From Ceratodon purpureus (Eukaryota; Streptophyta; Bryopsida; Pseudoditrichales; Ditrichaceae), in contig CM026422.1 of NCBI GenBank assembly GCA_014871385.1, forward strand, positions 22,065,014 through 22,129,013: a stretch of DNA of 64,000 nt. The letters are read 5' to 3'. The notes below the pieces were generated by a model, which was not told where the DNA came from, did no database searches, and saw nothing but the letters and a program-made list of their open reading frames with translations. The position numbers and the translations under genes were made by a program. Of the stretch, positions 8,753 to 48,000 are shown piece by piece; position 1 is the first letter of the stretch, and every line of letters begins with the position of its first letter.

Positions 8753-8816
8753 GTAAAAGGGGATTAAACCCTGAGCAGATTTCTTCAAGGGTTTCAAGAG
8801 AAGAAAGTCGATCTCA

Positions 8817-10049
8817 ATGGCGCGATTGTGGGACGATTTACCGCCTGAAGTCGTTGAGAACGTGTTAGCTCGCCTTCCTGTCCATGCCCTCTGCCGATCT
8901 CGGCTTGTTTGCAAGAAATGGGATCACCTGATAACCGACCCTGGATTTACATCCTTCTATGCTCAGACGTCTCGGCGAGCATCCCATGTGCTCATCATGC
9001 CAAGGGAGTTGAGCATATGCCGGTCGATCAAACGCAAAAGGAACTGGGAAATATTGGACATAGAGGAGAAGCGGTTCTACACCCTCAGCGAGAATTTCAT
9101 TGAGGATTATCTCCTTCGCACCAACAAAGACTTTGCGCACTTCATCCCATGTATGAAATTCACACTTGCTGCCGATGCGGGGCTTGTCTACGCAATGTAC
9201 TTCAAATACGAAACCCGGCGGCATATTGTCTGCAACCCCGTGAGCAAGGACATCCACCAAATCCCGGAACCAAAATTCCACATCTTATACAACCGCGATA
9301 TTTTTCTCATGTTGGTGGACAATGCTACTCAAAGCTACAGAATCGTAACCATTCAGTTATATGACAGCCATTACACCAGAAGAGATCAAGTCCATCTCTA
9401 TGATTCCAAGACACTGCAGTGGAGGAAGCTCTGCAAAATACCCGGAGATTCCTACTTAGCTCACTCAAGCATCTTCCTGAGAGGTGTTCTCTTCACTTTG
9501 TTTTTTGACTTGTCCATAACTCCCTGGCGCCCGAAATTATGTGCGTGTGATTTAGACACTGGTGTCTGGTGCCATATCGATGTTCAGCTACCTCAACCAT
9601 CTCATCCGCAAGATAAACTTCAGCTTGTGGTGAGCTTGGATCGTTTGTTTTGCGTGGAATACTCTGGACTTCGGAGGTGTAGATCCTCTCATATGACCGA
9701 TTGGGAGGCTTTGATTGAGTTGGAGCCAGAGCAGGCGAAGCAGCCGGTTACTGTGGTCATTTGGGAGATTCTCCTAGCTGATAGGGAGGTGAGGAAGGTG
9801 GCAGAAATGCCCAAGCACAGTCCCCAAACCTTACTAATGGGTGATCCAGTGGTGGCACTTGGGTGTGGGGACTCCATAGTTGTTTCATCTTTGGTTGCCG
9901 GTTGCTGTGTGGCATTTGACTTGCTGAAGCATTGCTGGCATGATCCATCGACTAATACTGAGCACATGTATGGCACTTGTATGCTGGACCCGCATCGTGA
10001 GTATGCCGGCCTTGTCAATCTTGACTTGAGAAAGTTTGGCACAAGTTGA
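8817..10049 (+). CDS. F-box protein, substrate adaptor of an SCF ubiquitin ligase
   Basis: This intact single-exon frame of 410 codons starts at an ATG that opens directly into the F-box. Residues about 4-45 read LWDDLPPEVVENVLARLPV, then RSRLVCKKWDHLI, the standard LPxxxxxxILxxLPxxxLxxxxxVCKxW pattern that binds SKP1. The remaining 360 residues resemble the beta-rich, weakly conserved C-terminal half of plant F-box/kelch-associated proteins, with recurring W residues (near 200, 240 and 296), but no clear kelch blade is visible, so the substrate cannot be named. By family knowledge it would recruit target proteins to a cullin-1 ligase. Plant F-box genes of this type are commonly intronless. 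No frame damage is present. Confidence 0.88.
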   Translation: MARLWDDLPPEVVENVLARLPVHALCRSRLVCKKWDHLITDPGFTSFYAQTSRRASHVLIMPRELSICRSIKRKRNWEILDIEEKRFYTLSENFIEDYLLRTNKDFAHFIPCMKFTLAADAGLVYAMYFKYETRRHIVCNPVSKDIHQIPEPKFHILYNRDIFLMLVDNATQSYRIVTIQLYDSHYTRRDQVHLYDSKTLQWRKLCKIPGDSYLAHSSIFLRGVLFTLFFDLSITPWRPKLCACDLDTGVWCHIDVQLPQPSHPQDKLQLVVSLDRLFCVEYSGLRRCRSSHMTDWEALIELEPEQAKQPVTVVIWEILLADREVRKVAEMPKHSPQTLLMGDPVVALGCGDSIVVSSLVAGCCVAFDLLKHCWHDPSTNTEHMYGTCMLDPHREYAGLVNLDLRKFGTS

Positions 10050-11769
10050 CAGCCTGAAGATCTAACAATTGGTTGATAACATCATGGTCACTAGCATGGT
10101 TACATGCTAAATTGTAGATATCGTCTCATGATCCAAGCTTCTACTGGAGATGAGGACATGGATGTTGCTCAGGTACCACAAATTTTGAGCACTAGAGAAA
10201 GTGTCCAACTGAATGTCATTCCAATTTAGGAAAAAAATTGTGGAATAGGATTAAACTGAATTAAAATGAATTACAATGCTGAAGAATTTGTAGTGGTGCA
10301 AATTTAAGTCTTGAATTTAATTTTGGTAGTAATTTGTTTTACGACTAAGCTGTGGAAGCACATGTGAGTGCACCTGATACACCATCACCACCAATGGGAA
10401 ATCAGAGCTGCTATTGTGGTGTATTATATAAATGCTAGATCGTTCTGGCTTTAGGTCATCTCACAGCTGAAAAGCATAATCAACTCAAGCTTAGGAAGTT
10501 CATAAACTCTTAGCGAACTTTGATAGCAATAGAATTCTAAACCTTAAAGATTCTGATGTCTTCATCGATGAGTAGGGTGACATTGTGAAAGGGTACAAAC
10601 CTACTATGGTACTACGATATGTGTAGTGACTAGTAAAAATAGATGCACAACCCCTTGATGGATGAAATGCTTTCAAACAAAATAACTTCTTTTATGGAAT
10701 GAAATTCGTACAATGTATTGGACTTGGTACCTTCCAAAGTAGTGTAAAAACTATTGAAAATTAAAATTAATCTAAGCCATTTTTATATCCATAATATGTT
10801 GGTTATTTTGTGTTTTTTAAAATCAATGATAATATGGTTTTAGGGTTTAGGGATTATCTTAGATTTAATCATGAATGATGAAGGATAGACTTAAAAATCA
10901 TATCTTAAAAGAAGTATGATCTTCACGTATGGTTGCAAAAATATGGTGGTTTAAATGAAGAAAATGTCTTTTTCAAAAGGCATTGTTCTTCATTAATTAA
11001 CGAACTTTATAAACGTATATATTATGTATACATAATGACAAATATAGCAAATTTCTAAAACACGCTACATAGAAAATTCGAAATCAAAATTAACAATTGA
11101 GTGTATTGATTATTTCCCTTAGTTTTAATAGCCATAATTTTACGATTGTAACTCAAAATCAAATTTTCAAGTGGGTCATGATTCATGAATCTTAAATCTA
11201 TTCCTCATCATACACTGTTAAAATTTGAGTGATTTTTCTTTTTCTAGCGATATTAACATTCATCTCGAAAAATGAAAAAAGATCCAAATGTGGATCTTGA
11301 AATAGCATTGATTTTTTTTAATCTTCAATATTTTTACACTACATACCAAAGTATCAAGTCTAATGAATTTTGTACCAATCTCATTCCATGTGACAAAACA
11401 GTTTTTATTTAAAAGCATTTCATTCATTGAGATATTCACTGCAATTTATGGTAACTAAATTGTTAACCACCTCTTCCAACTAATCATTTTCACCCTTAAA
11501 TGACATTTTGGATCCTAGGTGGGTAGCCCGGAAGGAATCTGATTTTATTTCCCCCAAAAACGGCTCTGTAGTGCATTGTAGCGCCGCACTGTAGCACTGT
11601 AGCATTGGAACACTGCTGAACTTCAGCTGCCCCAACCTCAGAACTTGTTCAATTTGATAACTTTGATTGCTTACCAACGATTCCACAATCTCTCAAATGA
11701 GGCGAAACTTTGGAATACAGATGGCTTTTCTAGTAGCTTTCCAACGCAACAAGTTTCACTTGATTTGGT
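10050..11769. other. Intergenic, AT-rich; insertion site of the CACTA element at its end
   Basis: No supported gene. The last 250 bp before the transposon (11,520-11,770) are less AT-rich and contain short reiterations of CACTGTAGCA-like sequence, so the transposon may have landed in an older repeat. Confidence 0.4.
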
Positions 11770-11772
11770 TGA

Positions 11773-11785
11773 CACTACAAGGGAA
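11773..11785 (+). repeat. Left terminal inverted repeat of the CACTA element
   Basis: CACTACAAGGGAA, identical to the reverse complement of 26,925-26,937. It would be recognised by the transposase. It abuts the TGA target duplication at 11,770-11,772. Confidence 0.92.
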
Positions 11786-11789
11786 ACTG

Positions 11790-11903
11790 TGTCCTAATTG
11801 ACAAAATGTTGATAGAATTCTGTCAACCGTGGTGTCAATTAGGGTACCTCGATTCGGTCACATAGTTGACAGTTTTTTGTCAATATGACTGTCATCTTGG
11901 ACA
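11790..11903. promoter_or_regulatory. Left subterminal repeat cluster (probable TnpA sites)
   Basis: Six copies of TGACA or TGTCA in both orientations fall in about 115 bp, ending with GTCATCTTGGACA at 11,891-11,903. The same 13-mer recurs at 26,878-26,890 near the other end. In En/Spm, TnpA binds short subterminal repeats; the assignment here is by analogy. Confidence 0.7.
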
Positions 11904-13600
11904 AAATTACACGTAGGATTCATCGTTCGTCAGGATCCTTGCCACTCTGGACTTCCGCAGCCATGTCAGCTTGCAGGTTTAACCTGATAATTTTCAGATT
12001 CTTGAGGTAGATTCTGTAAAGTTCGAGGAAGGTTCGTCATTTTGGAAAGATCATTTACACCTTCACTTGGTAATTCTTTACGCGCTCTTTCTTTACTGTG
12101 AATCTGGTTATTTTAAAAATAGTAAGGTTCTCTGAAATTTCGGCTTCAACCGCTCAGGTGTTCACAGGTGTTGATGTCTGCTGTTTGAGAGTGTTTTAAG
12201 ATCCAGTAGTTCTAGTTTACTCTCAATGACGTGTTTTCATTCTGACCAATGACATTCACAGTATATGGATAATGTGGCATTTAAAAAGGAAAAATATAAT
12301 ACAGAATTAAATATTAATAGTGTGTTGCTTTCACACTGTTCCAAAATTCAAAGCATTTAGAATCCTGTTTTCTCGGTTTTGAAGTCTGTTCTCTAGACGC
12401 GTTACAGAAATCAAGTTCTCCATCACTTCGTATGCCTGTATTATATTTCCCACAATTATGCCTCCCCCATGCTAATTGAAATCACTTCAGCACCTGTGAA
12501 TCATACAAAACATTTCGCATTTTCCAATCCTATTGTTAATCACTGCAGTGGAAGCTCTTGTGCAACCCAGTATTTAAAGTCTTTCCGAAGATCTTCTTCT
12601 TTCCTTGCAGAATTAATAGACCAGTGCAGGTTTCCCAAACGAATGACTCTCAATGTCTTCTCGCCTTCATCTTAGCGCGCGCTGGTTTTATCACAGGTCG
12701 AATGCTCCCAGGTACAGCGTCAGGCTGTTTACACTGCGAAAAAACACTCTATGCAAACTTAACAATAACGTAATTCTTGTTAAATAGGTTAATGAAACCG
12801 CATATTAGTCACACATGGAACACTGGATTTCAAGTATTGACTTCGGAAATGCATACCCACGTCACTGTGTAGACATTGAACTGAATGCGAAAAGAAGACA
12901 GACGTAGCCGTCTCTGTTACGCTAGGTGATAACATTGGCTTCACAAAAACTCTGTCGTCTACGTCTGCACCATTGTATACTATTCTGTACGTAGATCTTC
13001 AATTCTATTGCTGCATACCCCCCTGTCCTACCCACTACTAACCTCACAAACCTGTTCCGCTTGCGACGTTTCTGCATGTGAGCTTGTCTCCCCGGCATGT
13101 CCCTAAAGACGCAGAACATGTTAGAAAACAATTACAGGCTGAACAAATAAGCAGAAATATCATCATTTTATGAGCTTCATGTGAAAGATGTATATGCAGG
13201 ACGGGAAAATAGAAGATCTGATGAGAATTGCCTATAGCTAAACTATATTAACTGAATAAACGCGTATGGTATAATCTCACATGTCTCAACCGCGTAATTG
13301 TTATGGCAGGAGCAGCATCTTCTGACTCTACCTGCAGAACAAGTTGAGAGCCGTTAGTACGTCATCCAACTTAAAGTGATATACTGTCTAAATATACAGA
13401 ATATTGTACACTCACAATCTCCCAGTCGCCTCCTGTTCCCACTTCCAAGATGTTATTCAGTAAATCATTTTTGGAGAAAAGAAATCAACGTAGAGAACTA
13501 GTATGGGTAATCCATTTTATTTTTCTTCTTATCATGATATTTATGACTAAGTACATGGATTCCTAGACTACTCAGTCATGAAAGACACATTAGAAGGTTG

Positions 13601-16600
13601 TTACTGTACCCCTGTTCCCTGCGCATGCTTCTGCAGTACTCCCTCTTCAGGTGCACAATTCACAATAACTTGTGGACGACCATGCCCAGTCACCGAACCA
13701 GCTTCTTCCTGAGCGACTGCGTGCTGCTTCTCTAATTCTGCAATTCGTTTCAGTAGCTTCAACACGAAGGGGTCAGACTGAAGTCGTCCCTCGCTCATAT
13801 GCTCCACACCCATGCTTGCAGTATTCAACATGTTCACTTCTGCGTTCGTTTTTTTTTTCTGACGTTCGAAACCTCTGAATCCATTTCTCTTCGGGAACGA
13901 CATTGGCCCTCTCCATCAGAACTATCTTCCTCCTGCTCTCCTTGATAGTTCATTACGCGGGGCACGTCACATGTCAAGGATGGTACAGTATCGCAACCAT
14001 GCATGACACTGTCCATTTTTTTCTTTTTCAATGACTGTCCACCATATCCTTTGTCCCTTTTCATCTCGGCATCAATCTCATGAGGTTCAGGTGATCTTCG
14101 GAACCGCTTCCGAAGTCTTTCTCGTACACCGACCTCTCCCGACGGTCCAGTTCTTCCGAAATTCACCCGGCTAGCATTGGCCTTGCTGCAGTCCACAGAT
14201 TTCTTGATGTTCGCAGGATTCTCCATTTCCCTCTTTAGCGACCTCCAGGTCCGGTCAGATATATCCTCTGGTTTTGGTGACTTCGCTTTGATCTTCTTCC
14301 ACAAGCTGGCACGTCTTAGTGATACCCCGCGAGCTATGACTTCTTTCACGATTTCGAACTTCAGAGGATGACTATACTCCCACGTGTGCTGGATCCACTC
14401 AGCAATTTCCTCAACCGCATCTCGTGGCTGCTGGTTGATAACCCCTATAGCTGGATCCAATTTCCGTGATAGTAACATAACCTCCTTCCGCCAGTCCGAG
14501 ACACCAACGCCGTAAGGTTTACCGGTGAACTGGTCTACCTTCAAATAGTTCCTAGGTAATCCTTCTCTTCGACGTCTATCTCCTTCTCTGTCTCGAACCA
14601 ATTTCTCGTGCCTTCTTTCTTTTCTCTTCTGCGCTTCAGTTTCGTCCTCATAGCGTTCGGGTGCCATGTCTAGAGCGTTATCGGGTCCCCCATCTTCTTG
14701 GTCTTCAGCTTCCTCCACCTCCTCCTCATACTCTGACTCACTACCGTCACCACTGGCACTGTCGTTGTCCTCGTTATAGAAGGTGTATGTTTGTTGTTCC
14801 ACGGTCCCCTGTCCTTGAGAAATGAAAGGCCTCGCCCTTGCACCGACATCTACAGCTCTGCCAAAGGTCTGTTGCCAATCAAAACAGTATATCAAGTAAA
14901 GGCCCTCTTTCAGTGCACATTGACCTCGTATTTATCGACTGAGAAGAATTTCACCGAGGCTCTTGGATTACAAAAGATTTACTACTGTACGACAACAAAT
15001 GACACCAAGTGTAGGAAAAATGTACTTCATTTTCTCCTAAGTAAGTTGGTCATACTGGATCAAATACCACCATTTAAGCGTCGTACAAATAACTCCGGGG
15101 ATAATGAAGCGCAAAATACAGTCCTCTTCAGAGGTGGCGTTAAAAGTATAAGCAAGTACCCTTCTTTATAAAGATTCAGATATGCAATAGACAAGTTCTA
15201 CATACGTACGTCATTCCGAAATCAGTTATTAACTGGCAGGTTAAATGAACAAAGTTCTCACATAAAGAGAGAGTACCTCGACAATCGCTTCTGCCCCATT
15301 CGTAGTTGGAAATGTCCCTATGTTTTCATTACTCGGAGCACGGTTACCCACATGGCCCACAGAACACTCCGGTACTGTAGTCCCTCTATCCTGTCTGGAA
15401 ATTCTCTGGCTCGAAACTTGGTCTGCATCGGAAAGGGAAACTGTCATTAAATCGTTGTTTAAGGGGAAACGTATGACCTCTGTCACTGTGTTCTACATTG
15501 TGAAAGGATTCTCTGTCAATATAGTTAGTCGTGTATACTGCAGATGATTGGTGAGAACATGTTCATTTCCATTAACATCGTACGTCGACAAATTTTAATA
15601 CTAGTACAATATTAAACTTTTATAAAAAAATGTCATATGATTTGATGACCAGAAGCACTTCTTACGTTGAGATGTAGGGCCGTTCCGTGGAGGTGCTGTA
15701 ATGTCACCGGTCCGTGAAGTAGACTTAGTGGTCTCCCGTATGGCCTGATTGTTGTTTGATGATTGCCTTACTCTCGTCGGTGTCACTGTCCTCGGTTCCA
15801 CTCGATCATTGGCCTCTCCAGTACCTCCTGAGACTCCTCCTGTAGATCGTGTATTCGGATGCTGTCTTGGCGGGCGGAATTGTGGAGTGGCAACGGGTGA
15901 CTGTGCATCTCGTGCAATCGGAGTTTGTTTCGCACGAGAACTTTCTGTTTCTAATACACCTGCCACAGGGGCCGAATCTTGAGTCCCGATTCTTATACAT
16001 GGTCCGCCACCACCATCTTCTGCAGGTCCAGTACTCAACGTAGACTTCTTCGGTCTTCCCTTTGAAGAAGATGCCTCACCCTGGAAGGACGGTTCCTCTC
16101 GACGTGATGGAGGGGGTTCTTTCCACTGCACAAATTTTTCACTTCTCCTCTCTGAAGGAAGACGTAGAGCCATATCCTGCACAAACTTATATAATACAGA
16201 ATTCTTTATTCCATGTTTGTAGAAATTCAAGATAATGCAGGACCACCGAGTATACACAAATCGTACTTTGATGACTACTTCATTGGTAGGCAAATGCCAT
16301 CGTGAACCAACATGACTTGCACTACTTTGTGATATGATTCTAGAAAATCCAAGAAAACAATTACTACAGGCATGAATAAATCCAGTTCTTGTACGGTTTA
16401 TTACTTTTCTCTAGATCATTCCTCAGACACTCTAGAACTTCTTTGTTTACTTTTGAAGGACCACGAGGACCCACTGTTTTCAGAAAATATAAAATTGTAT
16501 TCACTGAAAGCCTTTGTCAATGTACAACTGAACCCAAACAGCCACTCTTACTGAGTCCCGTGCATAGTCAGATCAACGTCGTCCACGAGGCTACGACAAT

Positions 16601-17990
16601 ATACACCGAATTTAGGTTTGGGGAAGCGGGACCAGTATATTTCCAGTTAGGTATACAACTACTTCAGATAATATCTGAGTGTCACCAAACGACCGAAAAA
16701 CTCTCAAGTCTAACAAGTTTTACACTGAAAAAAATTAAAGCGCAATGAACAACTTACTGCACAGTAGTCCTCCCCGGAGGAAGAGTCCGATGTGCTGCTA
16801 GTATCCGCCGCCTCCCAGCTTCCTTCGGTTTCACTGCTGTATTCGGATGACTTGTAGTCCTCTTCTTCGGTGTCTACTCCTGAAACCCCGTGTCCCACCG
16901 AGTCTTCGTACTCTTCGTCGCTGTCGTTGCCTGTTGAGTCCGATACGACTGCGTTGTCGCTCCCAACAGGACCAGTAAAGGTATTCCTACTAGGTTTGTA
17001 CTCCTCTCCACTGCTACATTCAGATCTACTTCTCCCGCGTGGACTTGGAACTAAGTAGTCATTCTTTTCAGTGCCAGAGCCATCTGATGACCACGAAGAC
17101 ACCTCTGTAGGAGTTCTGATTTCTCCGGTATCTAAAGCTGTCTTTGCCTCCTCTAGAGCTTTCTTGTTCTGTTTTGTGTACCTGTTAAGTTGCCAAAAAC
17201 AATAGTGAAGCAACAACTACAAGTGGAGTTCCGTAATCTCAATTAACGAACTCATACATAAGGAATTCTTGCGCACTCACAGTGAACGATGTAGAAATCT
17301 AAATACCTGCTCCGTGGAAACTGTTACTCTCACATTTCTAAACAAGTGCCGCCCAAACAAAAACAAACCAAGCACTGGGGGGGCTCGAATGTTTGACAAG
17401 GACCTGTTAAACAAGAACCCGAGCTAACCCTCGCCGCCTTAGACGTGGAACGAACTAGCCTAAATTGACAGAAGGCATGCAGAGAGAGATAGGGAAGACG
17501 ACAACAGTATTAACGACTAGAACAGAACTGGGAGTCTGTGCCTTCTCGCATGCGTTTAGAATTTTTCATCCAATTAGGTAAACTGTGCAAGGAAAATTCC
17601 AGAGAATTCTGTCGTTTGCCATGTTCAAACGAGATATCAGCTCCACGTACGACTTTTAAAAACCCACTAACATAAGTCTATCACATTACACCACGCTGAC
17701 TGGAGACGATGAAATAACGGCGGAAAGGGGGTGCTCCTAATTGCGGAGGCGGTTACCCTTTCGTGCCTATCCCTCCTCGCCCTCACAAATAGTTAATTTG
17801 GGATTTCAGAGATCGTGTAAGTCCGAGGAAACCGTTTTCTACATAGCCATATACCAAATTTGCTTTAAAACAAAAAAAGGTAACTGTGTGATACTTACAA
17901 CCAGTTTACTACTCCAGTTTGTTGACGCAGTAGCTTGTCGTTTTCCACAATAGTTTCATACCTCTTCAGTTCGTAGTGACTGACCTTCAT
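13601..17990 (-). CDS. TnpA-like protein of the CACTA element (plant transposase_24 type), one frame break
   Basis: Exon model: 17,990-17,899 (ATG; MKVSHYELKRYETIVEND), 17,181-16,758, 16,176-15,666, 15,479-15,277, then 14,868 downward; every junction is GT..AG and keeps frame. The early part is rich in S, E, D and P. The last exon holds the recognisable core: SDWRKEVMLL, a long helical segment with TWRSLKREMENP, then DCSKANASRVNFG and an SGEVGVRERLRKRFR stretch, similar to the Ptta/En/Spm (transposase_24) family that binds transposon ends. The frame stops at 13,834 just after an A10 tract (T run at 13,849-13,858). One more A would join it to the frame ending at 13,601, which carries the family-typical SDPFVLKLLKRIAELEKQ coiled coil. 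So the copy may be frameshifted or may contain a sequencing slip. Confidence 0.75.
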
Positions 17991-19071
17991 TCTCACTTGT
18001 TCAATGCGTGTCCTCCTGTAAGCGTGAACTTCTGGTGTATACAGCTCAAGACTAATTTGTCTAGAGGTGTACTATGTGATTAGAGTGCGGAAGAACTCGC
18101 CCTAGGTTTGGGGAATCGGATACTGTAGTGTGCATCTTCGTTTCTAGTATCCGTTGAGGTATCTGATCGAAGGGATTGTATGACCGAGGCGAAACACAGA
18201 ACCCTAAACTCCAGGTATATATCCTCTCCAAAAACCCTACTATGGAAGGACTTCGTTGTCCACCCAATCAGTCATTGCAATAATTGATGACATACTCACA
18301 TATAGCATGGATCGCGTTGTTGCTTTGTCGTGTCAAGTCAGTTCCTTGCATTCAGTCGCTTAGAACTTAGGTTTCGCAACGGGTCTATTTAATTCTGCGA
18401 TGGGTTGCCAATTTTGGGTGCTGTCACATTGAATTAAATGACAAGGCCATCCACAGTTTTCCCTGTCAATTCCGCTTCTGCAAATCATAAACGTATGTTA
18501 CCAAACTCCAACAGCGTGAATGAATATTTTAGGAGTGTTAGTGATTCATTATCAATGTCGATTTGGCTTATCATATTTGTATGCAATATGTTTTATGGTA
18601 TTGCTGTCTTGATTGTTCCGAACTGCGAACACTACTTCTGAGCTTCGTCATTCTGCTCTGTACAGGAGAGGTATACTCTGGACGTTTCCATTGAAATTCG
18701 GTTCATCAATACAGTCTCAAACATCCGTTGAAACAGGGTGAGAATCATGTTCAAAGTATACTTCATTTAACTACTTGTTCCTCTGCGTTTATTTTATGGA
18801 GATTTGTGTCACCGAAACTCCAAAAAAAAAAAAAACACTTTTCATGTACATTTTAGAGACAGTTTTGCAATGTTATATACTTCCGATAATTTGTAAAGGT
18901 ACTGCTCTGGAATATTTGTTTGATTCACGTGAAATGATGGGTCTCTGAACATGTGCCTACATACAAGTGTGGCTTCATTGTCCGTATTTTCGTAGAGTCA
19001 AACACTAACAATCATTGATAGTGTGGGACGCTGTATTCCAGGATCTGTATCATTGATCAAGTAAAGAGAAA

Positions 19072-22000
19072 ATGAGGGGAACCATTCTTGGGCAGGCCTA
19101 CCACTTCGAGAGGGCTTTAGCTGCTCGTCAAGGCATCTCACGCTATCCCTGTGGCTGCGAGCGATGCCACGGATTCAAGACACAGTCCGTTCATAGAGTA
19201 GAAATTCACCATCGCAAGTACGGTCGCGACAGTACCCTCGTAGACCCTCTCCTTGTAAGTAAACTCTATTACGGAACTCGATGTACCTATGATGCATGGC
19301 TGGGCTTTTTAATCTGTATAATCAACGTAGAGTACATACTTATATGGGACATAAAATCTTGTGTCTTTGATGTATTGTAGCGTAATCCAAATTTCCCATT
19401 CCAAGGGAGAGAGGACTCTGTGGGGGAAGATGCTTCGAATCAAGGTCCCGAATCGGTAGAAATAGAGGAGGAGGAGTTCCTTGATGCAGAAGATATGGAT
19501 CAATTCGAAGAGAATCCTCCAAATGTGGAAATACACTTCGACCACTTAGTGGAAAATTATTTTTCAAGAGTGGACGAGCTCCACAGACAGTCAAGCGACT
19601 CGGAAGACGAAGTGATTGATTTTGATGATTTATCGTCTGAGGAAGATGAAGAAGACCAAACACCTCTACTGGAGCGTCTGCTTCGAGATTCGGTGGAGCC
19701 ACTTTATCCTGGCTCAACAACTACCAGGTTACAATTCAGCGTCGTTTTCATGTCATTGTGTACGTTGTTTTCAGTGAGCCATCATTGCCTAGACGAAATG
19801 TTGACATTTTTGAAGCATGATGTCCTGCCTCCTGGAAACAGTTGTCCCAAATCGTCTTATGAAATGAAATCCATGATAACGAAACTAGGTCTGTCTCATG
19901 AAACAATACATTGCTGTGATTGCGGGAAAACATTATATTGGAAAGAGAATTCGGATCTGCAAGAATGTCCAGTCTGCTTGAAGTCACGGTTCATCCCGGG
20001 GTCAATGACTGTTCCAATCAGAGTTTTGCGATACTTTTCAATTATCAAAAGACTGCGTAGAATGTTCCGCTGTCCAGAGATAGCGAGGCATTTGCGGTGG
20101 CATAGTACACATCATTCAGGAGATAGTAAAATGCGATCGGTTGTCGATAGTGAACAATGGCAATTCATTGAGCAGCGTTTTCCAAAATTCAGTGGAAAAG
20201 AGAGAAACATTAGAATGGGTCTTGCACTCGATGGTGTCAATCCTCATAGTCTCCAGTCTTCAAGGCACTCTGTTTGGCCAGTTATGATTGTATTATACAA
20301 TCTTCCGCCATACCTTTTGACAAAAAGGTTTTTTGTAAGTCTTACTATGATAATACCTGGGCCTTCTTCCCCGTCAGAAGACACTATAGATATTTTTTTA
20401 CAACCCCTTGTCCACGAACTTAAGAAACTATGGAAAGGGGTTTCAGCTGTCGATATGTCTGAGCCGGAAGGTCCTAGACGTAGTTTTAAACTACGTGGCA
20501 TGCTAATCTGGACAATACATGATTATCCAGCTTATACCTTAATATCGGGTCAATCTGGCAAAGGTTATGCTGGTTGCCCTATTTGTGGGGAAGGGACATA
20601 TGCCGAATACTCTAAACAAGCAAGGAAAACCGTGTTCCTAGGCCATCGTAGATGGTTGAGACAGGGGCACAGGTGGAGGTTAGCTCGTGCTGCATTTAAC
20701 GGACAACCTGAGCTACGTGCATCTCCAGGCAGGCAGTCTGGATTGACAGTGAGACAGCGAGGAGCCTGGAGAGAATCCTTTTTGAGGATGGGTGGACGGC
20801 CAAACTCCAAGCACGATCCCGTAAAGAAGACCGGTGTGAAGAGAGTGAGCATTTTGTATCAACTTCCTTATTGGGAGGTAACACTCTTACCCTTATGTCA
20901 GTTAGAAAAATTATTCGTGTATTACTGGTTACAAATAAACGTTGCTTCATATTTGGAGATGTGAGGTTCAATGGTAGCTGTACCGAAAGGATTGACATAA
21001 GCAAAGTGTAAAATCTTATTGACTTGAATATGGCTTTGTATCACCCGGAGCCGTTAGTTATGAGTTCTCCCTGGACACAAGAGTACACATACAGTTTTAG
21101 TCGTAACCGAGCAGTGTATGTTAATTTAGAAACTGGATTGCATTGCTCACTTGGAGTTCAAGAGTCCAGTATTTTGACGCTCATGTATCATTTTTTGTAT
21201 CTCATAAACTGAATGAAGAGCTCAGTTTGAATCATTTGCTGTAGATGCCCTCTCATTCATCAGTGTCACCTGACTTGCTCAAAAACTACATGCTCATCTA
21301 TTGCTGTAATGTGATATGTAAAACAGATGCTTCCCATAAGGCATACTTTAGACGGTATGCATTGCGAAAAAAACATTTGCGAGAATCTATTGCGGACCTT
21401 GTTTGGAGAGACTGATGATGCTAGATCGCGAGAAGACATGCGTATTCGTGGGATTCGAAACCACCTACACCTACATCGAAATCCAGATGGACAGACATAC
21501 TTTAAGCCAGATGCTCCATATGTCTTGACCAAGCCGCAGCAGTCTGAGTTTCTGAAGACCTTGAACGACTTGAAGTTTCCATCGAATTACGTGGGACCCC
21601 TAAGACAAAGGATTCTGCATGGCAAACTTAGAGGTTTGAAAACTCACGACTTTCACATACTATTACAACAAGTACTTCCTGTTTGCCTGAGAAATGTAGG
21701 CAATTCACGTGTTGTGGGAGTAGTAATGAGAGTGAGTAGGCTGTTTCGGAAGATATGCTCTAAAACGGTTGATAAAAACGACAAGCTGTTGATGATAGAG
21801 GATGTGGCGGAAACAATATGTTGTTTAGAAAAAGAGCTACCACCGTCGATATTTGTGATCATGATGCATCTTCCCATTCATTTGGTTGAAGAGCTCTTCA
21901 TATGTGGTCCAGTCCATAATCGATGGATGTACCCGTTTGAAAGGTACATGAAGGGTTTAAAAGGATTTGTTAAAAATAAAGCTAAACCAGAGGGCAGTAT

Positions 22001-23806
22001 GGCGAATGGATATCTACGGGAGGAGTCAATTGGGTTTCTCAACGAATATCTTTCAGAATATACACCTACCACGAAGCGTGCATGGGATGACAAGGAAGAA
22101 CCGGCGATGTATGACGAAATATTGGAGGGTGCGAAAAGGGACCGCTTAATGACACCTGATTTCTTGAGCTTAGTGCATGCGTTTGTGTTAGAGAACACAG
22201 AGCACATGGAAGTCTACCGCAGGTACTTACTGTTCCTTCACCTGAAGTTCTGTATGAGTTATGGCAGGTGTTTTGACTTCGAGATTGCCAGCACTGATCA
22301 TTTACACTGGAACTCACAGTAGAATTCGCTTATAATCACAGTCGTTGGGGAAAAACTGGTACTCTGGAAAACATACCCTGTATTTATGGCTAAAGGTCAT
22401 GGTCTTTGCCATTGGAATTGTCGTAATGTTTCAGGTTAAATCTAGTTTGTAGTCATAAGAGGACATCGTCTACATTTCCAGTATGTAACAGCGTTTTTGT
22501 TTACATGATGCATGTCCCTTTCAATTCCTGGTCCTCTGTATTGTATCGAATCGCGTAGCTTCGAAGCTATATCGTGTACATGTTGATGTACTTATTACCA
22601 TATTCTCTGTATTACAGGAGGTACGAGGAAGCTGTCTCAAGAAGGGAGCAGGAAAGAGAAGATTACAGAAGACTCCAGCGCCGGAGGGGGAGAAGAACAA
22701 GATTCGCATTTCCATTAGAGCTTAGTGCGCTCCCTGTTTTTTCGGCTTGGGTTCAGGAGGAAGTAAGGTATGAGCAGCGCGCCCGGGTTGATGTGGATCC
22801 AAAAGTGGTGGACACGGCTAGAGGGCCATTAGATGTGGCTACAGCATACAAATCCATGTATGCTTATGGAAATCATTTTAGAGTTTTAAGCTCCGAGACT
22901 CACTTAAAAACCAGCGACAGTGGAGTTGCTGCCACTTATAAACAAGTTTGTCGAAATAGCATGCGGGATGGTAATTTTGTTACAGCAGACGTGGAATACG
23001 TGGGTCACATTGAGGAAATCCTAGAGCTAAACTACAGGCGACATTGCGTAGTTGTGTTAGTATGTGATTTTGTGAAAGCTAATTACAGAGGTGAAAATGC
23101 AACCATAAAAAAGGACAAATGGGGTTTCACATTAGCGAACTATGAACGTAGGTACGGTAGAGTTTGCAAAGATAGTTTTGCGTTTCCGGTGCACTGTGAA
23201 CAAGTCTTTTATTCCAACGCCAGTGAGTGCCCAGGATGGAGAGTGGTCTTGAGAAAAGAAGTTCGCGGAAAACGGGTAATACCAGAAGGCAATACCGAAG
23301 GCGAGAGGGAGTTATTTCAGATGGGCCGGGATGAAGAATTTGAGGGTTTGCGTCCCGATCGGGAGGTGGGGGAAGAAGAAGTGCCACAAGCAGCGACAGG
23401 TAAAAATGTGGTTCTACAACCTCCACTAACAGGGCACATGGGGAGACCATTCAGACCGGGTGGCCGAGTAACAGGCAGAGGAGGACGCAGGGGGAGGCGT
23501 GGGAGGGGAACAGAACTTGGAGATCGAAGACGACGAGTGGCAAGGGAGGGAAGTCCGAGTTCATCTACCGAGCCTATCACTCAATTAGGAGGAGAAGGTG
23601 TTCCCGTTGATGAACACCAAAATGAAGTACCTCATAACAGAGCGGAGTCATCAGCGGCATCAAGTCTTCGAACGCGAAGGGTGCGCCAACGAGTAGAAAT
23701 TGATGAATGCACCGGCAGTGATAGCAGTACAAACTCAGAAGAGTACAGTGATTCTTCAGATGACATGACCTCCAGTAATTCCTCACGGAATTCAGAATGG
23801 GAATAG
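19072..23806 (+). CDS. CACTA transposase (Tnp2/TNPD type), four exons, intact
   Basis: Exons 19,072-19,254, 19,381-20,877, 21,327-22,222 and 22,618-23,806 join in frame at GT..AG junctions to give about 1254 residues with no internal stop. The first exon has a Cys-rich CGCERCHGF followed by a His-rich helix, as in the transposase-associated zinc domain. Exon 2 has CCDCGKTLYW, ECPVCLKSRF, the LALDGVNPHS block, IDIFLQPLVHELKKLW, CPICGE and FLGHRRWL, all typical of Tnp2. Exon 3 opens with IRHTLDGMHCEKNICEN, then the DUF4218-like region (PIHLVEELFICGPVHNRWMYPFER). Exon 4 has a DUF4216-like domain (RRHCVVVLVCDFVKANYR ... EQVFYSNASECPGW) and an S/E-rich tail. It would cut and join the element ends in the nucleus. 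Confidence 0.88.
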
Positions 23807-24844
23807 TAAGAAATGTTCTGCATGTGCGTTTCGCCTACCCGATATCTACTGAATTCAACCTACTGTGTCTCATAGAATTCTTTTGGTTCACGTGTCAACT
23901 TCATCTTCATAAATTTTTTCAACGTGAGTTCATGTAATCTAGGAGTTGATGTGTCTTTGCTTTCATAGAATTTCAGTAGTCCTATCCATATATCGCTTAC
24001 AAAATGCTTGTCCTGTCTTAGAGCCGTCGACATTGTAATTTCGTTATTATACTCTGCTGACATGTAGCTACTAAGTTCAACGTCTCCAATGTGGCATACC
24101 CAGTTTCCAACGTAGTCTATGTATTGAATCTTGCTAACCCTCCCATGTGCACATATTGTCTAGGTTGGCAGCATCGGATGCCTCTAAGGACTGAAGAACC
24201 ATTTTTTGATGGGGAGGAGAACTAACTGTCAGGTAATGCAGTATACCTCTACCATCATTGATTGGAAAACAAATGCAGTATACCTCTGAGATGGACAAGA
24301 ACTCTCGTAAAGGTGAGACATTGAACCTTAAGCAGGACTGTAGGAAAATGCAAAAACTGTTTACTATATACGATAACTCTGCTGATATGTATTTCATGGA
24401 ATTAAAACAAGTCAGGCTCTATCCTCAGAGCGATTCAGTTGTATATAATGCAGATGAGCGGGACACGTTGATAGCAGAGAGTGTAAGAGGTTGTGACTGT
24501 AGTGGACCCAAGAAATGTTACAAAAAAGCTTCCAGGTAGTCGAGTACAAATTGGGAAGTGTCGATGCTAACTGAAGTTGCTAAATCACATTCTAATTACA
24601 TATAACTCCCACAAGTGGAATGTGTCCTTCCATAACAATCCTGAATTTACATTTAGGTTCTAGATGTACGGAAAAAGTGATCTTTCGAAGATCATTTGAG
24701 CTGCGAAGACATCTTCAGACGAAGACCTTGGATATTGTACTTAAACTTCTTGACATTAATCAAGAACTGACGTGTAAACTATGTACTGTGCATGAGAAGG
24801 CAGGACTCCGCAATCACATATTGCACTCTCGCATCGCTACCAGT

Positions 24845-25306
24845 CTAATCCTGAGGGCTTGAATCTGTGACCACTTCCGACTCAACCGCATCACTCACGG
24901 AGCTCTCGAAACAGTTCTGGCAGCTGTAGACCCGTGTAGAAGACTCACTGCTATATTCGGAGGGTGCAGAGTTGCTGTTCGCGCTGGAGTCTCCTTCCTC
25001 CTCGTCACCGTCAATGACAATTGGGTGAAAGATGCAGCATCCAGGCCGGGCTGGTTCCACAGGCTGTTGCGCTATGTAGTCAAGAAGGTGGACACCGGAG
25101 GCATCACCAAGCGCGATGGCTTTGTTGTAAGTAGAGTCAGTCCACCGGAATTCATTAGAGAACTGAAGAAATTCCCCCAACAACGGAACATCAGGGTATC
25201 TAAGACGCAGGAACTCTCGGCGCCTCTGGATGTGAGCCAACCATTGCAGAATGGCGGCTTTGTCAATGGCATACGACTGACGCGGACAAGACATTGAGAA
25301 GGCCAT
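24845..25306 (-). CDS. Uncertain 153-codon ORF inside the CACTA element
   Basis: A minus-strand frame with ATG at 25,306 reads MAFSMSCPRQSYAIDKAAIL and continues as a helical, basic-aromatic N-terminal half, then an acidic, Ser-rich tail (EYSSESSTR, SSVSDAVESEVV). The tail style resembles the Ser/Glu tails of the transposase and the TnpA-like protein of the same element, which argues for a related origin or an extra exon. No family is recognised. A possible upstream continuation in another frame (25,263-25,505) was not joined convincingly. It could be an accessory element gene, captured host sequence, or chance. Confidence 0.35.
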   Translation of the reverse strand: MAFSMSCPRQSYAIDKAAILQWLAHIQRRREFLRLRYPDVPLLGEFLQFSNEFRWTDSTYNKAIALGDASGVHLLDYIAQQPVEPARPGCCIFHPIVIDGDEEEGDSSANSNSAPSEYSSESSTRVYSCQNCFESSVSDAVESEVVTDSSPQD

Positions 25307-26794
25307 GACACTTGTTCACAGACTCTACCGAATCAGGTGGAGGAGAATGTGATGCAGAACTCGGAGGACGTATAACTAATTCGCAGAGACGATCAACTGG
25401 AAAACGGTAGCGATGGAAAATCAGTGAGGAGGTGATTTGGCTCGGCATAAGTTGAAGACTGTTGAAAAGAAAGTGGTGAACGGTTTGCAATGAACAGTGG
25501 CGCATGGCACCAACATATTGAACAAATGGAGGTTCTTCCTACGTCAAGGCCATGGGCACATAGGCAGTACTTGACATAACAGGGAACGGAAAGAGATTTC
25601 GAAGACTTCAGGTGAATCACTCTCACTATGCTTGTACACATTGGGAGGTGACAATTCGTTAATTTCGTACTCACAGTTGATAGTTTGATAATGTACAGTA
25701 TAGGTTCCTAGATTGCTTCTCATGATCGACGTACATTTTCAATACAGAGTCACATGTGACATAGGGAGACTTTTAGAATCTCAGAACTGGTTATCGTACA
25801 GCCTCGTATGTAATTTGCCAGATTTGATAAGCCAAGTGCATTGACTTGTAATCCACATGTGCCTTTTATATGCGCAGCACCTTCAAGATTCAGAGACTCT
25901 CACATCTGTACCCGTAATTGAGCTTCAATATCATTCAAGCGGAGCTACGGTAGACGGGGAAATGTAGGAAGAGACGTATTTCAAATGATTAATCTGTCAG
26001 TGCTTTCAATAACATCGATTTACAATGTAACCCAAAACATAAATTAACCGCATTTGGGAGACATTCGTAGGCTTTTTTATTTTCTCCCATTACAGTCATT
26101 TCACATGATCAATTACCAGTGAAAATTATATCGTCACATTGCTAATTCATATGTGTAATGTGCATATGAATATGGATTTTAATTTCTATGAACTACAGTA
26201 ACCTATTGGAGCGGATATTTTATCTTCTGGCCGCCCAGGTTAACTTCCCAAAAAAAACATCAGTAATTTCTGAATTTTAAAAAATAGTGAATCTTTAAGG
26301 GTTGAAATGGTTTATTTAATAGACAGATGCTATTGTAAAACAGACCCTAAACAACACAGAAGTCACCCATGCCATCACTAGATAATGTATGGGTCACACA
26401 GTATAATCATAACTACAGTAAATGTCAGAGAATTCTACAGTGCGAATGACACGTGTGACACTCTCATTTGATAGCGTTATTGCACTGTGGACGCATGTCC
26501 AAGATAAAAAAAAAATTAAACGACCATTCTTGGAAATCCCCATGAGGTAGTTAAAAACAGTCTTGGAATTCGTGGGTCCCCCTCGTGAAATACCCTTCAC
26601 CTTCCCTGCAGAACTAATTTTATCCGACATGCGGTACAAGTGGTAAACCTTTTGCTCCTAAACCACACTAAATTTAATGGGATTTTGTGAAGTCCACTGA
26701 AGGAATGGACGGAAAGTTGTGAATTCGTCGAGTATAAATTGGAGATCCATGATTCTCCTAAGATCCGTCGACATGGTACAGTCCACGCTGGAAA

Positions 26795-26920
26795 GCGCAT
26801 CTCTAATTGACACGGAATTGACAGACTCTGAAGAGTCCAAGCAGTTGACAGAAACTGCGGGCACAAATGGTCGTTTCGTCATCTTGGACATTTTCGTGTC
26901 ATTTTTCTGTCATCTAGACC
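26795..26920. promoter_or_regulatory. Right subterminal repeat cluster (probable TnpA sites)
   Basis: Five TGACA or TGTCA motifs plus GTCATCTTGGACA (26,878-26,890) mirror the content of the left subterminal region. The 13-mer is in the same orientation at both ends, while the short motifs occur both ways. Confidence 0.68.
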
Positions 26921-26924
26921 CCCG

Positions 26925-26937
26925 TTCCCTTGTAGTG
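26925..26937 (-). repeat. Right terminal inverted repeat of the CACTA element
   Basis: TTCCCTTGTAGTG, the reverse complement of the left end, followed by TGA at 26,938-26,940. Confidence 0.92.
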
Positions 26938-26940
26938 TGA

Positions 26941-27906
26941 GAAATGAAACTTCTGTCTCTAGTTATTCCATTAAACCAAGCCCGTGGGGCTGGCTCTGAC
27001 GTTTAAGGGTTAATTACACTAAAACACTAATCACGATTTTCGTCTCACAAACGCCACTGAGTGCAAAGGACGTACATCTACAACCTTGAAAACTATACAT
27101 TAAGTCCAAAAATTGTGTTCCAATCCAAAAACCAAAGGATTGGACCTCAATTGTGGTTGATGTAAGGAGTAAGTTATAAAAAATATTAAATCTTATAAAT
27201 TAGATACTTATGAAGACAAAAAAATAAAAAATATAATATTTTCTTTTGTTGATATCTTTTATTTTTAAGCCACCTAAAGAAGACATTTGGCTAGAAATTG
27301 AAAATCAGTAAATTTGATCTTTAAAAGGAGAATCTTAGTTTTTCAAAAAAACAAATCTTTATACATCAAGTGCCAATCTTGCTATGGTGTTGTTTTAAAG
27401 TGATGTTCAACCCCAGAGCCCACCTTCCTAGGTGGCCATTTTCAGAACCCCATGGCCCATTTAAATATTCCAACTCTACCTCCAAAAATATTGGAATGGG
27501 ATTTGACTGGGATCTGTTGGAGCCTTTGTAGCCTTTGAAGTTTCTACTACATTCTACTTTCTAATGTAGTAGAAACTTGAAAGACTATAAAGGCCCCAAC
27601 ACAGAATCACATTAAGTATTTGTAGAGAGTCGAACATGATACCTCATTGTTGACTCTTGGGAGCTTTAAGCCCCTCCTCTTGCCTACCCTCAACTGGTAG
27701 CTTAAGGTCATTCTGAACCTGCTCCTTGGATTTTTGGAGTGGCTTAAGTATTGGCAACCAATTTAATTATTGATGTGAAGGTAAAACATCATTTCCCACA
27801 CCAACTCATCATTTCCCACACCAGCAAATGAAAATGATACTTTCCCACCTCCACCACACTAGAACATCTAAAGTCACTTCATTTCTAAACCATCGTAGTT
27901 ACTGTA

Positions 27907-45074: not shown

Positions 45075-48000
45075 TCAAAGGAGCTCAAGAGGACCGCATA
45101 ACAGAGTCACTAACAGCAACAAAAGACCACCGAGAAAGGCTTTCGGTGAATTCCGAAACGTTCCGCTGGTAGGCCAAGTATCAGGAACGGCACACTCGTC
45201 TCCATTAAACCAAACCTTCGTTGGAAATCCAGCTCTCCCCTTCACATCGATCCCCGGAGTAGTTTTTTTCGTGAAAGATATCACCGACTGCAGCACCGAA
45301 ACTCCAGTTTTTGCCTGGTCGGACCCAAGTAGATAGTTGTTGTAACCGGGATTCCCTTGCACAACAAGGCTTGTGTTTGTTGGTGGAATCAAGGTTCCGT
45401 TAACCAAGGTTCCGTTGAAAGTGTATGCCTTTTCATATCCTGGCAATGCTTGTGGCATCTCCACAACGGCAAACCAGTCTGGGTACGTGACGTTGGACCA
45501 ACCGAAGAGAGACATTCTCGCACTCCAGCCCTTGGTGTAGTCTGACACTACGTGCCAGTTGATGTTAACCCCGCAGTTGTCAGGGCAAGGAAGCGGATTG
45601 GGGACCTCCTTGTGGAGGATGCTGGCCCATGCGAGGAGCTGGGCTGTTCGATTCTCCGGGCGCATGGTTAGTGCACTGTAAGGAAGCAGCATGGCGGAGG
45701 TGTTGGCGTTGCATTGAGTGGGGTTGGGATTTGGGAGCACTCCGCAGGCGTATGTGGGGCAGGGGACGATGGAGTCGTTGAGGTATGTGGAGAACGAGAC
45801 ACAGCACTTGGGCGGTGGTTTCTTGGGTCCTGTTGTGACGTTGCAGCTTACCTGCACAAGGAGAAACACCAAATTCGGATTAGAACAACAATAAATACTT
45901 GTCAATCCCCAAAGTAACGCAAGACGATCTAACGCTTTGTAACAGAATTCTGTTTGGCATTCCGATTTCTATGGAAAAACCCAAAAAAACCAGTCAACTC
46001 TCCGTGCAATTTTGCTTTCAAGTTGAGTGCACTATTGTGCACAAGCGATAGACATTGAGCTTATAAAGAAAACATATCTAGCTATCAACTTCACACAAAC
46101 AGTACAAGAGCCAACTCCCCAATTTTGGTCGCTGCTCGTAGTAATCCAGGATGGTGTGACTCTCTGCACTGGAATTAAATTAAACCACTTTCTACACAGA
46201 AAAAGCAAAACAGAAGCTGACTCTTTTGGAGCTAATTTGCATCTGAGCCAATTACACTAATGGTAGGCGATGAGTTGAAGAAGAAATAAATGAGTACCTG
46301 CCATGTCTTCTGAGCAGGTTTATTGTAGTTCAAGGTTGTATCAGGATCAGGGAATAGACTAGGAGCAATGCGTTTTGGAATGCCGCACGTGTAGGAACTG
46401 TTTACAAGATTGAAGTTAATAGGGGGGACCAAGTGCAGGGCGTCGATGTTGTAAGGTTGGACCTTGTACACCTGCATGGTGAATGCAGATTTCGATTTGG
46501 AGGGGTCAATAATAGCTGGCAGGATGGTTCCATTCCTGCAGCAGTACTTGACGTTACCCAGAGTGGTGTCGTTCTGTTTCTGGAGAGGAAGGTCGGAGAT
46601 TTCTGGGGTAACGGAGCAGCTCAAAGCGCTGTTGATGTCCAAACCTGGTGCGGGCTGATAGCTTTTCGCGGCAAGCCCATTCACACATACCTGCGTGTCT
46701 GCAAATTTGGGCCTTGCTCCCTGCATGCTGTAGATGAATTCGCTCTCTTGCCATGTCCAATTCAGAGCCCAGTTATCCAGCCTTCCAACTGGACTGTTGT
46801 TGGAAATAGTCACCTGCAAGTTCGAGAGAGCAACAACCACTCAGATTCCAGATGCATAAAATATCCCATTCGGAATCTTGAGTTACTAACGCTAAAACGC
46901 ATGAAGGATGAGTTTACCAAATTTCTTGCCCAAAGCCACCACATTACATAACATTAGGTCAAGCCCAAAACATCTTTGCCCAAGAATCACCGTATTAGCA
47001 CAATAGGATAATATGGCCAGGACAAAATGTACCTGTGCCTGGTAATTGGTGGCATAGGTCGAAAGCACATCATAAGTGATTGTGAAGTCGCCATATTCAG
47101 GTATATGAAAACTGTCGTCGTTGGTGAGCGTTATGTTGTTATTTGGCTCAAGGCAGCAAGTGTGCATTGTATCATCTGCCGACACAACGCATGCATCAGC
47201 TCAATGGATTATTAAATGGTGGAACACACAATGAATAATTCTTGCTCAATAACAGAGTAATATGGAAGCATAACACATTCGCGCACACAAGCAGATGAGA
47301 AACAACTAACAAGGCAGCTCACTTACTTCCATAAAGTTTGGGGATGCTGCAATTGTAGCCCGGGGTAGTGAAGTTGACGTTGGATGGCATGGGATTCTTT
47401 GGATTGCCGAATTCGGTGCCGACGAGTGTAAAAGATTTCTGAGACTGTGTTATGTCCCCAGCTGTTTCAATCTCATTGTGCAGGGTTATGAGGGAAGCTG
47501 GTAGCAGAACGCATCCTTGAGACACATTCGCTGGGTATGCACTTCCATCCTCCGGCGTCAATGTTCCGGAATCACCGGATGCCGAGACAAGAATCTGTCC
47601 AGTCACCAGAGAAGTGGTTAGTTTTTCAACAAAATAACAAAGGTGGGTGGCTGGTGAAAACACTTCAGCACAAGAATCTTTCATCGAGATCATCGAGATC
47701 ATCAACATCAACAAGATCTTTCTCAAAACTTAACGAGTGTTTATGAACTCCCTCTAGAACTCCTACTTTTAAGAACCAGCCTCTCACAAGAAGGGCGTTG
47801 GTATTCAAACCACTACTGAGGCAAGGACACCCGTTCTCTACAATTAACAAGACCAGGGTATGATTAATCCAAATATCAAAAGAAAATGTAAATAGGAAGG
47901 TACACCGAGAAGGTTCAGTGTAAGCACACTCCAATTCTGTGAAATGAACATCCCCTTGGTTCAAAAAAGAAAAACAGGAAAGAAATTGGAATTTATAAAA

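Follow-up and report, generated by a model that had tools for sequence, protein, structure and literature searches.

What is known of the biology of CACTA transposons comes mainly from maize, snapdragon and a small number of crops, in which TnpA and TnpD are produced from one transcribed region. In lettuce, contiguous transcription of the tnpD-tnpA pair LOC111904991/LOC111904992 has been reported and, citing work on maize, was called essential in the available part of that report (PMC8195511). The Jozin elements of Chenopodium combine Transposase_21, DUF4218 and DUF4216, and some types also have Transposase_24, located in ORF2, which Peptidase_C48 can follow (available text of PMC8978399). A four-exon gene has been put forward as the ancestral CACTA transposase, with Region I introns placed on or near the conserved E (available text of PMC4158355). 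The soybean Tgmt*, as far as the accessible text describes it, is a putative autonomous element of 20.5 kb with imperfect 13-bp terminal inverted repeats (TIRs), a three-base duplication and one large gene that gives rise to alternatively spliced transcripts (PMC2613891).

Here we describe a CACTA element of ~15 kb in the moss Ceratodon purpureus that is ordinary as a CACTA but unusual in its layout. It occupies positions 11773..26937 of the window, by which we mean the whole stretch of 64,000 nucleotides analysed (C2:22065014-22129013). Like the En/Spm-type elements of angiosperms represented by the lettuce pair, it has CACTA ends, a 3-bp target site duplication (TSD), subterminal repeats, a tnp2 transposase gene and a second, TnpA-like gene; unlike in that pair as described in the available text, the two genes are divergent on opposite strands and are accompanied by a third ORF (PMC8195511). 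It also resembles Tgmt* in its large size, 13-bp TIRs and three-base duplication, whereas the single large gene of the soybean element is replaced in the moss by separate divergent genes (PMC2613891, available text).

At the left junction, TGA is directly followed by CACTACAAGGGAA (11770-11785), and at the right junction TTCCCTTGTAGTG is directly followed by TGA (26925-26940). The 13-bp TIRs (CACTACAAGGGAA at 11773..11785 on the plus strand and at 26925..26937 on the minus strand) match at 13 of 13 positions, and the TGA duplications lie at 11770..11772 and 26938..26940. A search of the window for the TIR with at most two mismatches returned two matches, both exact, for a chance expectation of 1.86. 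Because about two chance matches are expected at this tolerance, the pattern search is weak on its own, and the case for the boundaries rests on the exactness and position of the matches, the TSD, the other copies and the empty site. The left subterminal cluster (11798..11901) contains five TTGACA/TGTCAA words together with TGTCAT and TCTTGGA, and the right one (26807..26913) contains three TTGACA, two TGTCAT and TCTTGGA. Counted over the terminal 200 bp, TTGACA/TGTCAA is found five times at the left end and three times at the right end, compared with an average of 0.21 and no more than 2 in interior segments of the same length (142 segments). Similar clusters were present in 13 elements, with 2-5 motifs per 200-bp end, compared with averages of 0.05-0.24 in the interior. 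For the longer word TTGACAGA, there is no clear enrichment across the window (8 occurrences for 4.4 expected; 9 of 100 shuffles reach 8). One occurrence of this word, which is like the subterminal motif, lies at 17465-17472 between the divergent genes and is perhaps a regulatory binding site.

The element is inserted into an older repeat whose relatives keep the empty site. This repeat, ~358 bp long, is now split into a left part of 285 bp (11488..11772) and a right part at 26941..27013. A genome search with the left 285 bp gave 165 first-look candidates, 40 of which were scored, namely the place in the window and 39 others, so that at least 39 other copies exist with 88-91% identity over the left part. 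The window flanks were then joined into one query and compared with the best five relatives, which were fetched for this purpose. In all five the joined flanks align across the junction over 357-362 bp, with 89-91% identity and no more than one gap opening, and each relative reads straight across it with a single TGA. Since all five fetched relatives keep the empty site, the insertion is demonstrated. Elsewhere in the window, we found a DUF7869 fragment at 1654-2094 (1.1e-30), from another gene or repeat, an F-box protein frame at 8775-10046, 1.7 kb to the left of the element, and COBRA-like exons at 45078-46840, to its right; the COBRA and F-box domains fit a land plant. Scanning the window for Rfam families and tRNAs produced no match.

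The genome was searched with the ends of the element. In the 362.5-Mb assembly (151 contigs), the left 300 bp identified 40 places, with 40 of 44 candidates scored, whereas the right 300 bp identified 21 (21 of 21 scored), this element included in both cases. We read 18 end pairs, which comprise 11 full-length copies of 15,165-15,928 bp (this one included), two derivatives of 2.9 kb that have ends of this kind flanked by perfect TSDs, and five ends-only pairs, two of them 15.4 kb, one 17 kb, one 33 kb and one 208 kb apart. Identical 3-bp TSDs flank 16 of the 18 pairs; the two pairs with no matching TSD, at C6:108.96 Mb (CGA/CAA) and C3:22.4 Mb (GCC/GCG), count against the interpretation we favor. 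The ends 208 kb apart (C12:16367648-16576099) share a matching CGT duplication and may reflect nested insertions or an assembly join. The middle portions of the two 2.9-kb derivatives (~1255-2954 in L039 and ~1241-2613 in L040) have no match to the element at E 1e-5.

On the plus strand, the transposase gene is made up of four exons, at 19072..19254 (beginning with the ATG), 19381..20877, 21327..22222 and 22618..23806 (ending in TAG). The initial annotation had predicted a four-exon transposase free of stops, and our model bears this out: it encodes 1,254 aa with no internal stop, and its splice sites are largely kept across the 11 full-length copies, with donor GTs in 11, 11 and 11 of them, acceptors in 10, 11 and 9, and the ATG in 10. 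Copy B7 lacks the ATG and two acceptors, and A2 lacks one acceptor. Exon 2 carries the PF02992 (Transposase_21/tnp2) domain (2.7e-65, 220 bits for a cut-off of 28.6) and exon 3 a DUF4218 domain (1.1e-30, above the cut-off). The DUF4216-like match of exon 4 falls just below its cut-off (7.7e-7; 30.0 vs 30.6 bits), and the resemblance of exon 1 to Transpos_assoc (E 0.069) well below. This combination of Transposase_21, DUF4218 and DUF4216 is like that described for Jozin in the available text (PMC8978399); Peptidase_C48 had no match in the nine ORFs of the moss element that were scanned. A search of PDB sequences with exon 2 gave only weak matches (E 0.66 and 0.93), which were taken as chance.

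The normal stop codon of the transposase is reached in this copy, A3 and B6, and in B2 the frame is open but its end is shifted; seven of the 11 models carry one to three premature stops, a point against our interpretation. In ten comparisons of this copy with the others, dN/dS was 0.066-0.095 at dS values of 1.1-1.9, which are near saturation (in-house Nei-Gojobori script, which passed over codons containing gaps or stops). Residues D345, D442 and E560 are conserved in all 11 copies and E574 in 10; the G of A3 at this position is a further point against our interpretation. D345, D442 and either E560 or E574 are candidates for the DDE catalytic triad. Intron 2 follows E560, 14 residues ahead of E574, and, if one of these two is the conserved third acidic residue, this intron would predate the split between mosses and seed plants. 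As in the ancestral model, the gene has four exons and its intron 2 lies close to the Region I introns, while the moss host and an intron 1 far upstream of Region I set it apart from that model as available to us (PMC4158355). We also considered the tnp2 matches that end at intron 2 as a sign that other families share the intron, and rejected this reading because the query enters this element's own intron at that point.

The TnpA-like gene lies on the minus strand, where the interval 13601-17181 holds three blocks with a third-position coding signal, the middle one weak. The main exon (13601..14868, with an approximate start) is recognized by this signal, by blastp and by dN/dS. Two probable internal exons lie at 15666..16176, which projects to 511 bp in 10 of the 11 copies and to 512 bp in one, and at 16758..17181. 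There is a phase mismatch between two of the exons, so the joins are only partly fixed, and our search for a first exon identified none. When the main block was compared by blastp with the longest frame from each of five PF03004-passing places, all five gave values of 2e-26 to 7e-35. Against our interpretation, besides these joins and the frame break described below, the protein in the window does not match PF03004 even at E values of up to 1, and its sole Pfam match is a sub-threshold one to Nop53 (0.0027). Because it is related to the five proteins from PF03004-passing places, we regard it as a Transposase_24 homologue by intermediate. Its dN/dS values are low (0.07-0.11, ten comparisons), and a single-sequence AlphaFold model of the main exon was of low confidence (mean pLDDT 49).

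In this element, the TnpA-like gene and the transposase gene point away from each other, and the same arrangement was found across the genome. For this count we used 82 tnp2 places at 43-100% identity (one second piece dropped) and 111 of 112 TnpA-like rows. A TnpA-like match lies within 12 kb of 55 of the 82 listed tnp2 places and is divergent in every case (55/55), although these pairs include related copies and are therefore not independent. For the remaining 27 places, none of the listed TnpA-like matches lies within 12 kb, which weighs against our interpretation. A second count set 43 PF03004 hits against 50 of the 82 tnp2 places and yielded 17 pairs linked within 20 kb, again all divergent. 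In strand, the two genes differ from an En/Spm-type single transcription unit, in which tnpD and tnpA share one strand. We found no divergent tnpD-tnpA pair in the literature searched on CACTA ORF orientation; since most subscription papers lay outside that search, such a layout may have been described before in some plants.

A third gene, ORF3, is located on the minus strand at 24845..25306 and encodes 153 aa plus a stop. It is conserved and has no Pfam match. Counterparts of 142-155 aa are present in nine of the 10 other full-length copies, the gene being broken in B7, and dN/dS was 0.11-0.28 in nine comparisons (B7 left out). A genome search, in which 150 of 583 candidates were scored, reached down to ~30% identity, and 13 diverged matches were fetched for an alignment of 17 sequences, among which nine residues are invariant. 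A Pfam scan of these 17 members gave two weak matches, each in one member (best 0.005). ORF3 alone had no match among PDB sequences, and the alignment had only a weak one (0.043) to an antibody chain, taken as chance; a single-sequence AlphaFold model was of low confidence (mean pLDDT 38). The conserved N-terminus, probably helical, is followed by a P-I-V-I-D-D-D-like acidic stretch. This HPIVIDDD-like stretch is presumably similar to a SUMO-interacting motif, for which we consider it a candidate.

When the 150 ORF3 places were compared with 232 listed tnp2 places (out of ~2,000 tnp2 candidates), 33 pairs were linked within 12 kb, all of them on opposite strands. ORF3 lies downstream of tnp2 and convergent with it in 24 of these pairs, and upstream and divergent in nine. 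The other 117 ORF3 places have no listed tnp2 within 12 kb, which must be set against our interpretation. A wider count of neighbors (97 of the 150 rows, 25-kb limit) found 24 convergent pairs and one same-strand pair at 22.7 kb. Beside two diverged ORF3 places, no tnp2 was found in either (one 2-kb stretch each, ~4.2-6.2 kb away). We propose that ORF3 may be a conserved accessory gene of the CACTA element. All three genes have been under purifying selection (dN/dS 0.07-0.28).

The right end of the element has a different history from the rest. The 2.65 kb or so from 24,300 to 26,937 are 90.5-91.1% identical to copies A1-A3, compared with 68% for 11,773-24,240. Identity profiles to these copies in 500-bp windows place the junction at 24203..24283, with values of 86-95% to its right and 50-86% to its left. 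Moreover, dS to the same three copies is 0.14 in ORF3 and 1.1 in the transposase. Because both identity and dS to A1-A3 differ across the junction, the data would be best explained if the right end had been exchanged, through recombination or gene conversion, once the subfamilies had separated. The left part, too, has relatives, in the form of deleted copies: over its left 954 bp, the element shares 90-91% identity with the two 2.9-kb derivatives. At the junction, the 13-bp word GCAGTATACCTCT is present in two copies (24238-24250 and 24275-24287), as if by template switch or end joining.

Based on our data, we are highly confident that the element is a class II CACTA (EnSpm) transposon of a moss, with tnp2, a divergent TnpA-like gene, ORF3 and a mosaic right end. 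The CACTA identity and ends given in the initial annotation are borne out by the TIRs, the TGA duplication, the subterminal clusters, the tnp2 domain, the copies and the empty site. We infer that its proteins would act as their angiosperm relatives do. By this analogy, the plus-strand tnp2-type DDE transposase would excise the element at its TIRs and ligate it into a target cut with a 3-bp stagger. The Transposase_24/TnpA-like protein, from the divergent gene on the minus strand, would bind the TTGACA subterminal clusters, and the minus-strand ORF3 protein might serve as an accessory.

The initial annotation considered the element possibly autonomous. Of the two genes by which we judged autonomy, the transposase is intact and the TnpA-like gene, in the copy of this assembly, is not; the claim thus holds for the enzyme, but the broken frame of the second gene weakens it, unless that break is an assembly error. 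Near 13,840-13,860 (minus strand), beside a run of ten Ts, this copy has one base fewer than all 10 other full-length copies and leaves the frame before the conserved C-terminus. An error of assembly next to such a homopolymer is possible, and if the base were restored all three genes could work and the element would be fully autonomous. This reading disputes only the defect and is compatible with the CACTA reading. In its favor, the transposase and ORF3 are open, and the C-terminal frame past the break (ORF 13601-13915) is still open and 59-73% identical to four copies. Nevertheless, the additional base is found in every one of the 10 other full-length copies, eight of which are open through the break region into the conserved C-terminus (B3 and B7 carry their own stops), and we consider full autonomy possible but doubtful. 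If the break is real, this copy would depend on others for its TnpA-like protein.

The same break, together with the lack of a close full-length sister, could instead mark a dead insertion, in which the transposase frame has not yet decayed and the copy no longer moves or supplies enzyme. The 1,254 codons with no internal stop, a dN/dS near 0.08 against copies at dS >1, and the matching TIRs and TSD argue otherwise, and make this slightly less probable still than full autonomy. A different question is whether the minus-strand genes are in fact one, with ORF3 as the first exon, a 7.7-kb intron holding the opposite-strand transposase, and then the TnpA-like exons. Such a gene would supply the first exon that the TnpA-like gene lacks in our model, and in linked pairs both ORF3 and the TnpA-like gene are opposite to the transposase. 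Yet ORF3 has its own stop, no donor scoring at least 5 within it is kept in at least seven of the 11 copies, and nine of the 33 linked ORF3 places are upstream of tnp2, so that a single minus-strand gene seems to us quite improbable. We retain the CACTA element with three separate genes as the preferred interpretation.

With respect to age, our data do not establish the recent origin given in the initial annotation. This element is at most 72.3% identical over its length to any of the 10 other full-length copies aligned, and it thus cannot be dated from a sister copy; its perfect ends and unbroken 1,254-codon frame only suggest a modest age. In the family as a whole, the closest sister copies are 99.0-99.3% identical, suggesting that parts of it moved fairly recently. 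A search of the genome for tnp2 gave 1,940 first-look candidates, and all 150 that were scored pass the Pfam cut-off. In Sphagnum, according to the available part of that study, no other classified type of repeat is as abundant as CACTA (6.8%; PMC9946827). The earlier remark that intact CACTA elements are rarely reported outside the seed plants may be true of individual elements; as a class, however, CACTA is well documented in Sphagnum and has many tnp2 candidates in this genome.

CACTA genes are over-represented on contig C6 among the listed places. This contig of 110.5 Mb makes up 30.5% of the assembly and holds 39 of 82 tnp2, 60 of 111 TnpA-like and 89 of 150 ORF3 places. Among the 15 tnp2 rows ranked 17-31, 12 have stops and 13 are on C6. 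This 110-Mb contig is presumably a sex chromosome. The C. purpureus genome has been reported, in the accessible text, to be 360 Mb in size, with U and V chromosomes of more than 100 Mb that represent ~30% of it (PMC8000587).

As a tentative and less probable extension of these results, moss CACTAs might form a distinct three-gene class. In such a class, a divergent promoter region would drive tnp2 and the TnpA-like gene in opposite directions, without using the contiguous tnpD-tnpA transcript considered necessary in maize. ORF3 would be a cofactor dedicated either to transposition or to evading silencing, and the exchange of whole end modules between subfamilies, as seen at the right end of this element, would spread ORF3 independently of the transposase. 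If true, the divergent genes and the extra conserved protein of the moss would mean that the coupling of tnpA and tnpD is not general. Additionally, the presence of an intron close to the presumed third acidic residue, a position also found in angiosperm transposases, is relevant to the ancestral four-exon gene proposed in the available text of PMC4158355. A haploid moss with several intact-looking copies would be convenient for testing both the layout and the ancestral-intron questions.
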